This document shows, piece by piece, positions 19,658-41,042 of a stretch of 64,000 nucleotides of DNA (within the stretch, counting starts at the first letter, position 1; the number at the start of each line of letters is the position of its first letter). Position numbers and translations under genes: made by a program. The notes beneath the pieces were generated by a model that had not been told where the DNA came from, did not search any database, and worked only from the letters and a program-made list of their open reading frames with translations. The DNA is from Chloroherpetonaceae bacterium (GTDB lineage Bacteria; Bacteroidota; Chlorobiia; Chlorobiales; Thermochlorobacteraceae), in the NCBI GenBank assembly GCA_033763895.1, contig JANRJQ010000008.1:62001-126000 (forward strand). The letters run 5' to 3'.

Positions 19658-21181
19658 ATGTCATTCACCAATCAAATCTGCAGTATGCCGAAAGAAGTAT
19701 CCTTTTCAGCCGAATCTCACGAGACGCTCACGCTCCTCAAAAGCCTTCCGATATTTAAACGATTTTCAGATACCGACTTGCTTTCAATCGGAAAGTTGAT
19801 GCTCCGGTTTGAATACGCAGAAGGTGAGTATGTTTTTCATGAAGGTGAAACCGGAAAGGAGCTTTTCATTGTCGAAAGTGGAAAGCTTGCCCACGAGCGG
19901 CATCATCATACCATTTTCTTTTATACCGAGCGCGAAGTATTTGGCGAGGAATCAATGTTTCAGGGTCGCCACCATCAATATTCGGTTAAGGCAGTTCAAC
20001 CAACCACCATTTATTCAATTTCCTCCGATGCTTTAACGAATGGGCAAGGGTTGCCATTAGAAGTATATGCCAATTTCTACCGAGAAGTCTGCGATTTTAT
20101 GACCGTTCGCTCTCACGAAGAAGAAATGATTTACCGCGAAATGGATGTGCTCTTGGTTCAAGACGGAGGCTGCGCACCGGGTTATAATCCGGTTACGGCT
20201 TTTTTGACTGAGTTTCTTGAGCAAGCCGGTCGCCGTGTATTTATAGCCAAAGAAGGCTTTAAGTCGCTTGTCAGTGGGCAACAAGACGATTATCGCTACT
20301 TGGTTTACAGTATGGGGCTATACAAACAATTGGAGCGAATTCCGGGCGTGATTTTTTCTCCACCGCTTCGCGAAGCACGCGGGGCCGACTTTCGCACAGA
20401 GCGTTACGGCGATTTCAAGCACGACGAAAATATCCGCAAAGCAGCAGAGAACTTGATTCAACGCAAAGTAAAAGTGCTTATCGGTATTGGTGGAAACGGC
20501 ACTTTCAAGGGAATTGATCGGCTGAGCCAACTTTTACCCGAAACCGTTCAAACTTTCTTTATTCCGGTGACGATTGATAGCGATATTATCGGCACCGAGT
20601 GCATTGGGCAACATACCGGTGTGGAAGTTGGGGCAGAAAAAATTCGATGCTATATGGCCGACGCGCGCACGCATCACCGATGCTACATCATTGAATTGAT
20701 GGGTGCCGCCGGCGGTTACCACGCCTTGCACTCATGCTTAGGCGCGGGGGCTCATTTGGCTGTTCTTCCACAATCGAATTATGACCCTGTAAAGCTTTCT
20801 CAAGCACTTAAAAATAGAACCTCAACGGTGATTGTTGTGGCTGAAGGATATAAGGCAGACGAACGAAAGTCAAAAGGATATCAAGGAAACGCGGCTGAAT
20901 ACTTCCGTGATCAATTGCTTGCGGCAGGCCTTCAGACGCGTCAACGGGTGATTTGCGAACCCTTTTCGAGAGATGTGCGCGGCGCCCGACCCAATAATAA
21001 CGACATTACGCTCGCTCAGCGGATGGTTTGCAAACTCACCGAACTTATCAAAGACAAACATAATCGTATGATGCCCGCTGTGCTTTCGGGTAGAGATTAC
21101 GCCATTCCATTTTATGAAATCAGAACCGAAAATTCGGTTGAATCGAATTTAGCCGAGCTTGCAAATCGTTTGGGAGTGTAG
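19658..21181 (+). CDS. Cyclic-nucleotide-binding domain fused to a phosphofructokinase-like domain
   Basis: A 507-residue two-domain protein. Residues about 25-140 form a cyclic-nucleotide-binding (CNB) beta-roll with EGEYVFHEGETGKELFIVESG and VFGEESMF (Phe95-Gly96-Glu97). Residues about 160-507 match the phosphofructokinase fold: QDGGCAPGYN, IGIGGNGTFKG, PVTIDSDI and IIELMGAAGG. Catalytic Asp307 and Asp309 remain, as does an Arg (341) matching the fructose-6-phosphate arginine. However GGDG has become GGNG (Asn280), TIDND is TIDSD, MGR is MGA and the C-terminal GHxQRGG motif is missing. In the CNB cassette the usual phosphate-binding Arg seems replaced. It may be a regulated kinase, a kinase with another substrate, or a sensor. 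A normal phosphofructokinase is encoded at 39900-41042. Confidence 0.82.
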   Translation: MSFTNQICSMPKEVSFSAESHETLTLLKSLPIFKRFSDTDLLSIGKLMLRFEYAEGEYVFHEGETGKELFIVESGKLAHERHHHTIFFYTEREVFGEESMFQGRHHQYSVKAVQPTTIYSISSDALTNGQGLPLEVYANFYREVCDFMTVRSHEEEMIYREMDVLLVQDGGCAPGYNPVTAFLTEFLEQAGRRVFIAKEGFKSLVSGQQDDYRYLVYSMGLYKQLERIPGVIFSPPLREARGADFRTERYGDFKHDENIRKAAENLIQRKVKVLIGIGGNGTFKGIDRLSQLLPETVQTFFIPVTIDSDIIGTECIGQHTGVEVGAEKIRCYMADARTHHRCYIIELMGAAGGYHALHSCLGAGAHLAVLPQSNYDPVKLSQALKNRTSTVIVVAEGYKADERKSKGYQGNAAEYFRDQLLAAGLQTRQRVICEPFSRDVRGARPNNNDITLAQRMVCKLTELIKDKHNRMMPAVLSGRDYAIPFYEIRTENSVESNLAELANRLGV

Positions 21182-39899: not shown

Positions 39900-41042
39900 T
39901 TAATCTCCGAATGAAATACCCAATGATTTTCCGGAGCGAATGAGGTCGTGTGTGGGTGGTACAAATTTATTTTTTCCGGCTACTTCCGAGATTGGAACGG
40001 CCACCATTTGTGCGCCACGCAAAGCAACCATTTTCGCGAATTCACCGCGCATCACCATATGAGCGGCGTAAGAACCAAAGCGTGTTGAAAGAATCCGGTC
40101 GAACGCCGTTGGTGTGCCGCCGCGCTGTAAGTGGCCAAGGATTGTAACCCGTACTTCAATGTCCTTTAGAAACTCTTCCAATTCGGCCGCCAAGCGATGA
40201 CCGACACCTCCCAAACGCAATTGATCGAAGCTTTCCTTCACCATTTTTTGAACCACCAGTTTTCCATCCGTGGCTTTTGCGCCTTCTGCAATGACAATGA
40301 TTGTAAAGCCTTGTCCTTGTTTATTTCTGTTTTTGCATACTTCAACCACCTTTTCGATATCATATGGGATTTCGGGTAAGAGAATGACATCAGCGCCACC
40401 GGCCATTCCGCCGTAAAGCGCGATCCAACCCGCATAACGACCCATCACTTCAATCACCATTACCCGATGATGCGACATCGCGGTGGTATTAATACGATCA
40501 ATTGACTCACAAACGATTTGAACCGCTGTATAAAACCCGAAGGTTAAATCGGTGGCCATCAAATCATTATCGATGGTTTTCGGAATCCCTACGGTTGGCA
40601 ATCCCATTTCTGTAAATCGTGCCGCCATCGACATTGTGCCATCTCCGCCGATGGCAATGAGTGCATCAATTCCTAATTTGTGCGCGTCTTCAACAACCCT
40701 TTTCGATACATCTTTGAAATCGCCGGTTTCGGGCTGATACTGGCGAAAAGGGTTCGCTTTATTGGATGTACCCAATATGGTTCCTCCAATAGAAAGAATT
40801 CCAGAAACATCTTTATTCGTAAGCTCTCGATATTCATTTTCAATCATTCCTCGAAACCCATCGCGATAGCCAATAACCTTGACGCCATAATCAGCAAGAA
40901 GCGTTTTTACGGCTGCTCGCAGGGTGGCATTGAGTCCGGAGCAATCTCCCCCAGATGTTAGAATACCAACCGTTTTAATATTCTTTTGAATTTCTCCACT
41001 TAATTGCTCTGATGAGCCTTCCATAACAGGTGTAACCGACAT
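39900..41042 (-). CDS. pfkA: 6-phosphofructokinase (ATP type, group III/plant-like)
   Basis: A 380-residue glycolytic kinase converting fructose 6-phosphate to fructose 1,6-bisphosphate. All active-site blocks are intact: TSGGDCSGLN, AIGGDGTMS, PKTIDNDL, HHRVMVIEVMGRYAG and GHLQRGGTP. Gly at the position equivalent to E. coli 104 with Lys at 124 is the plant-like ATP-dependent pattern, not the GGDD of pyrophosphate enzymes. There are about 20 extra residues at the N-terminus. It is monocistronic. A modified CNB-fused relative lies at 19658. Confidence 0.93.
   Translation of the reverse strand: MSVTPVMEGSSEQLSGEIQKNIKTVGILTSGGDCSGLNATLRAAVKTLLADYGVKVIGYRDGFRGMIENEYRELTNKDVSGILSIGGTILGTSNKANPFRQYQPETGDFKDVSKRVVEDAHKLGIDALIAIGGDGTMSMAARFTEMGLPTVGIPKTIDNDLMATDLTFGFYTAVQIVCESIDRINTTAMSHHRVMVIEVMGRYAGWIALYGGMAGGADVILLPEIPYDIEKVVEVCKNRNKQGQGFTIIVIAEGAKATDGKLVVQKMVKESFDQLRLGGVGHRLAAELEEFLKDIEVRVTILGHLQRGGTPTAFDRILSTRFGSYAAHMVMRGEFAKMVALRGAQMVAVPISEVAGKNKFVPPTHDLIRSGKSLGISFGD

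Follow-up and report, generated by a model that had tools for sequence, protein, structure and literature searches.

The window, that is, the whole stretch of 64,000 nucleotides analysed, carries a gene in which a cyclic-nucleotide-binding (CNB) domain stands in front of a phosphofructokinase (PFK) domain. Both domains, read from the sequence alone as parts of one frame, were recognized by Pfam above their gathering cut-offs: PF00027 on the CNB domain with an E-value of 1.4e-14 (54.2 bits against a cut-off of 27.5) and PF00365 on the kinase half with 2e-47 (162.3 bits against 30.9). A profile search of the PDB with the kinase domain matched muscle PFK at 3e-58. The two AlphaFold2 models are of low confidence (pLDDT 64 and 62), probably because only 9-10 sequences were usable; Foldseek on the low-confidence model matched PFK at 1e-13 in addition to CNB domains (Table 1). 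All 16 aligned sequences have Met10, whereas residues 1 to 9 vary, and translation may thus begin at nucleotide 19685. The possibility that two separate genes were joined by error is ruled out, as the full-length fusion recurs in many independent assemblies.

Table 1. Positions of the fusion gene, its domains and motifs, and of related loci
Feature	Position	Strand	Basis or remark
CNB-PFK fusion gene, 507 aa	19658..21181	+	single unbroken reading frame, no stop
CNB domain, residues 52-127	19811..20038	+	Pfam PF00027 cNMP_binding; Foldseek CNB matches, E 7e-10
Phosphate-binding cassette FGEESMFQGRHHQYSV, residues 95-110	19940..19987	+	alignment with 15 relatives; His106 replaces the cAMP-phosphate arginine
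Predicted helical sensor-kinase linker, residues ~134-160	20057..20137	+	AlphaFold2 model, helices 134-149 and 152-160
PFK domain, residues 164-464	20147..21049	+	Pfam PF00365 extent; homology continues to the C terminus
GGNG motif, residues 278-281	20489..20500	+	Asn280 at Asp103, Gly281 at Gly104
TIDSD motif, residues 305-309	20570..20584	+	Asp307 at catalytic Asp127, Asp309 at Asp129; Ser308 replaces Asn128
MGA motif, residues 348-350	20699..20707	+	Ala350 at Arg171
SRDVRGARP block, residues 437-445	20966..20992	+	family's form of GHxQRGGxP; Arg438 at His249, Arg441 at Arg252
Ordinary PFK, TIGR02483 'mixed' type	39900..41042	-	genome's only other PFK
REC-PFK loci L074-L083	e.g. L080:164-1663, L082:1492-2964	+, - respectively	
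CNB-PFK and PPDK pairs	L016:6004-10445, L024:6030-10601, L033:8978-13527	same strand within pair	gene order

The neighbours on the opposite strand encode a PHP-domain protein and a MalK-type ABC ATPase. Downstream, between 21321 and 23571, polyketide-cyclase-like, YCII-like (YCII-related) and sigma-70-like/DUF6596 genes stand in a row, the last encoding a sigma factor of the ECF type, for which the others are plausible partners. Apart from the fusion, the genome has one PFK gene only; this ordinary PFK, already taken for a normal one, matches the PFK family at 4e-105 and scores 435 bits with TIGR02483, above its cut-off.

Active site and effector site of the kinase half

Kinase positions were mapped via Salmonella PfkA and follow the usual Bacillus numbering. 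Residues R249, G281, T305, D307 and D309 of the window protein, at positions 72, 104, 125, 127 and 129, are retained, as are R341, M348, G349, E396, R430 and R441, at 162, 169, 170, 222, 243 and 252, together with Gly11 and Phe76. Thr125, Asp127 and Asp129 are invariant among 20 aligned family members, and position 243 is Arg or Lys across the CNB-PFK family. The contacts to the sugar and the 6-phosphate of fructose 6-phosphate (F6P) are retained, the change of His249 to Arg being a basic replacement. The sequence-only reading had placed the two aspartates and the GGNG, TIDSD and MGA motifs correctly. Its statement that the GHxQRGG block is lacking holds for the canonical form, which is gone; the block itself is present, altered to FSRDVRGARPN at residues 436-446, with R441 at Arg252 and R438 at His249.

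The unusual motifs are not fixed in the family. Position 103 is Asn in the window kinase and Asp in many relatives, and position 171 is Ala in the window kinase and Arg in L013, L014 and L015, so that GGNG alternates with GGDG and MGA with MGR; Asn103 is found also in a Parabacteroides PFK annotated as ATP-dependent. GGNG and MGA, being polymorphic among close relatives, are therefore ruled out as proof of a dead enzyme. The earlier view that the motif changes point to another substrate or to a mere sensor is weakened by this alternation, by the Parabacteroides enzyme and by the F6P-contact and catalytic positions, which are all retained or conservatively replaced. The signatures of the family are instead Val124, Ser128 and Arg249, within the motifs PVTIDSD and SRD[IV]RGAxPN. 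We know of no biochemical precedent for Ser128, Val124, Arg249 and Asn103/Ala171 as a set.

Position 104 is Gly in ATP-dependent PFKs and Asp in pyrophosphate (PPi) enzymes, and position 124 is Gly in many ATP enzymes and Lys in PPi enzymes. The window kinase has Gly104, while its Val124 matches neither; the phosphoryl donor is probably ATP, since Gly104 favours it and Val124 is uninformative. The window kinase falls under every cut-off of the NCBIfam subfamilies TIGR02482, TIGR02483, PRK03202, PRK14072 and PRK06830, its best score being 132.8 bits against 253 (PRK03202), followed by 110 against 371 and 102 against 431. With PfkA of the E. coli and Bacillus stearothermophilus type it shares the family (PF00365), Gly104, Asp127/Asp129 and the F6P-binding residues, but CNB-PFK lies far under the PfkA cut-offs (110 against 371; 133 against 253), has Val124, Ser128, Arg249 and an N-terminal sensor, and is devoid of the ADP/PEP effector site. 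The effector residues Arg21, Arg25, Arg54 and Arg154 are A, E, L and M in the window kinase and 211-213 are deleted; the same four positions are replaced, and 211-213 deleted, in all aligned CNB-PFKs and in their receiver-domain relatives (REC-PFKs, see below). Mean pairwise identity among 16 members is 0.68 in the kinase half against 0.32 in the N-terminal half. To judge from the alignment, this pattern is that of a functioning, conserved active site coupled to a fast-evolving regulatory half.

Distribution of the fusion and exchange of its input domain

CNB-PFK was found in 14 of 296 and then in 16 of 394 sampled genomes of the window's phylum. These belong to four families, namely f1 (the window's own, which includes Candidatus Thermochlorobacter, loci L016 and L017), f2, f5 and f50, and the fusion is absent from all listed genomes of f3, a family of the same order as the window. 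Outside this phylum, one MAG with the label Deltaproteobacteria (L021) is a carrier, and the phylum to which two rumen MAGs (L022, L023) belong has the fusion in 4 of 149 genomes. The relatives share 46-64% identity with the window protein over the full length. A taxonomic survey, suggested by the sequence-only reading, thus finds the full-length fusion across four families of the window's phylum and at least two groups outside it; a kinase unique to the window genome is ruled out by these relatives. No relative was found in viral contigs, where the ordinary PFK likewise gave none, and plasmids yielded only distant PFKs with at most about 29% identity among the matches listed; a phage or plasmid origin was rejected on these results. 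One frame, in genome G268 (L033:8978-10539, also L012), is broken inside the CNB domain into two ORFs, with an in-frame stop reported, which reflects decay or an assembly error.

At least one further PFK is present in nearly every carrier, the exceptions being G297, G555 and G584, all draft genomes of unstated completeness. The other PFK of the f2 and f5 carriers has a GGDD motif. This motif (Asp104) is associated with PPi-dependent PFKs; none of the NCBIfam PPi models attains its cut-off with these proteins.

The cassette of the window protein reads FGEESMFQGRHH, with His106, and does not match the pattern FGE[LIV]AL..[PV]R with its phosphate-binding arginine; the suspected loss of this arginine is confirmed for the window copy. 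Members of f5, for example L018, carry the cassette FGEIALMDEQPRTGSVRA, which is canonical by the definition in PMC2246266. Of the 16 aligned CNB members, 12 retain the arginine that contacts the cAMP phosphate; the window copy and three relatives do not. Damaged cassettes occur in other CNB-PFK lineages too, and the CNB domains of L023 and L072 are too divergent for a Pfam match. Because most aligned members keep the arginine and the window copy does not, it is plausible that the family senses cyclic nucleotides, but uncertain whether the window member does; with His at this position, the ligand of the window copy may be other than cAMP. Families of CNB domains that naturally possess His or Met there exist (PMC2246266). 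Gating by the textbook ligand is likely for some members, whereas for others it is uncertain.

Ten sampled genomes of the phylum of L021 possess the same kinase with a different N-terminus. These kinases score 577-599 bits against the family profile, the match starting only at position 126-133. The N-terminus of L080 and of L082 is a receiver domain (Pfam PF00072, E-values 5.6e-26 and 2.7e-25), and that of L074 gave no Pfam match. The acceptor aspartate is retained only in L080 and missing in the other nine; sensor residues therefore erode while the domain stays, in both versions of the protein. A maximum-likelihood tree built from 38 PFKs, in which the placement of some long branches is unreliable, unites CNB-PFKs and REC-PFKs in a single clade (100/100) with a very long stem of about 4 substitutions per site, and the REC-PFKs form a clade of their own (100/100) within or beside the CNB-PFKs. 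The unity of the whole is plain from the common motifs QDGGCAPG, PVTIDSD, ADARTH and SRDIRGAxPN as well as from the tree. Since proteins with different N-termini form a single kinase clade, this comparison shows that one kind of kinase has had its input domain exchanged, in one direction or the other.

Cyclases and gene neighbourhoods

Class III cyclases are encoded in all 16 CNB-PFK genomes tested (1 to 11 each), in none of six f3 genomes, which are relatives devoid of CNB-PFK, and in five of six REC-PFK genomes, a co-occurrence drawn from a small and phylogenetically clumped sample of few independent lineages, cyclases being common. The one exception among the REC-PFK genomes is G517, the genome of L080 with the only intact receiver. 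The window genome encodes five class III cyclases and six CNB proteins. Its best-scoring cyclase (G000:C10:58163-58678) has an in-frame TAG within the match.

No universally conserved neighbour of CNB-PFK was found, and the neighbours vary by lineage. Three members of the genus Thermochlorobacter (L016, L024, L033) have a gene for pyruvate phosphate dikinase (PPDK) 3' of CNB-PFK on the same strand, after a gap of some 90-190 nt; the pair may be an operon that unites two control points of glycolysis. In f5, 4-alpha-glucanotransferase (malQ) is found two genes from CNB-PFK, and glgC and glgA are near it in G290. In the rumen phylum, an aldehyde dehydrogenase gene is located immediately upstream at all four loci (L022, L023, L108, L109), with a metallo-beta-lactamase-fold hydrolase on the other side, adjacent or one gene off. 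The neighbouring PPDK and glycogen genes speak for F6P as the substrate and for a setting of carbon storage or glycolysis.

A putative signal-gated phosphofructokinase and its alternatives

Among the options raised earlier, a second, signalling-linked enzyme is best supported, by the conserved fusion, the receiver swap, the cyclase co-occurrence and the loss of the effector site. The observed fusion, clade, residue conservation, domain swap and co-occurrence lead us to infer activity, substrate, donor, ligand and direction of control along the following lines. The C-terminal domain would phosphorylate F6P, probably with ATP, and the CNB domain, acting via the helical linker, would replace the ADP/PEP effector site as the allosteric switch. 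The input of the family would probably be a cyclic nucleotide from the cell's class III cyclases; in the other phylum, a receiver domain would control the same kinase in place of the CNB domain. Alongside the ordinary PFK, CNB-PFK would set glycolytic (glycogen-burning) flux upon a signal. The window copy, with its His106, may bind cAMP weakly or have another nucleotide or a partner protein as its ligand. The whole chain, a signal-gated, probably ATP-dependent F6P kinase beside an ordinary PFK, is given an even chance; that the protein is an active sugar-phosphate kinase is held with more confidence than this.

The invariant family substitutions at 124 (Val), 128 (Ser) and 249 (Arg), the long stem of about 4 substitutions per site, the aldehyde dehydrogenase and metallo-hydrolase beside the gene in the rumen phylum and the nearly constant presence of an ordinary PFK would all suit a sensor-regulated kinase for another sugar phosphate, such as another ketose 6-phosphate or sedoheptulose 7-phosphate, with glycolysis left to the ordinary PFK. 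This appears unlikely, as the sugar- and 6-phosphate-binding residues of F6P kinases are retained or conservatively replaced and other lineages have glycolytic or glycogen gene neighbours. An ordinary active second PFK, whose CNB or receiver domain is a mere dimerisation or docking platform free of ligand gating, is also considered unlikely: most CNB members retain the arginine, the cassette of one family is of the textbook kind, and a kinase that has lost the classical effector site would be expected to be under some other control. The platform would nevertheless explain why the N-terminal domain diverges fast (0.32 identity), why the window protein and three aligned relatives have no cAMP arginine, and why the receiver aspartate is lost in nine of ten.

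Very unlikely is a catalytically dead sensor that binds sugar phosphate and nucleotide and relays its state to a partner. It is suggested by Asn for the Mg-binding Asp103 and Ala for Arg171 in the window copy, but in some close relatives Asp and Arg occupy the same positions, no aligned member departs from catalytic Asp127 and Asp129, GGNG is shared by the Parabacteroides PFK annotated as ATP-dependent, and the whole kinase is under strong constraint.

Returning to the signal-gated F6P kinase, a broader proposal is given slightly less than an even chance: this PFK clade, if indeed undescribed so far, would be a modular signal-output enzyme that gates glycolytic commitment directly, with CNB (in Chlorobi and relatives) and receiver (in another phylum) exchanged on the same kinase.

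Several known systems resemble parts of this arrangement. The window CNB domain shares the cassette FGE with CRP/PKA-type CNB domains (PF00027; PMC2246266), and some relatives have the full canonical cassette; it differs in its His at the cAMP-phosphate arginine and in its output, a glycolytic kinase. The survey of Kannan et al. 2007 describes many CNB fusions and does not mention phosphofructokinase (PMC2246266). Response regulators with enzymatic output (PMC5847659) follow the same principle, since a receiver joined to a metabolic enzyme is the sister group of the window protein, although most receivers on PFK have no acceptor aspartate. The archaeal two-component census reports receivers on metabolic enzymes in general, with no mention of PFK output (PMC5847659). 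In Myxococcus xanthus, Pkn4 acts on PFK and glycolysis (PMC6213207); signal transduction likewise bears directly on a bacterial PFK there, but Pkn4 is a separate Ser/Thr kinase, whereas the sensor of CNB-PFK is fused. A kinetoplastid phosphoglycerate-kinase-like protein (PMC7729029) combines, like CNB-PFK, a glycolytic-enzyme domain and a CNB domain in one chain, though the enzyme is another and the organism eukaryotic. The literature searched, mostly outside subscription journals, contained no paper describing CNB-PFK or REC-PFK fusions, which given this scope is weak evidence of novelty, and database listings of domain architectures may already show the CNB-PFK fusion.

In textbook accounts, the metabolites ADP and PEP control bacterial PFK; in CNB-PFK the site for them is gone, a signalling module is attached, and two alternative modules are found on the same kinase. 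If the proposed gating is true, it would amount to direct second-messenger or phosphorelay control of glycolysis within one polypeptide, and the family would be a natural experiment in the swapping of allosteric inputs and a ready design for signal-controlled glycolysis. A CNB-PFK member is present in the complete single-contig genome G005 (3,293,456 bp), and the system should therefore be testable.
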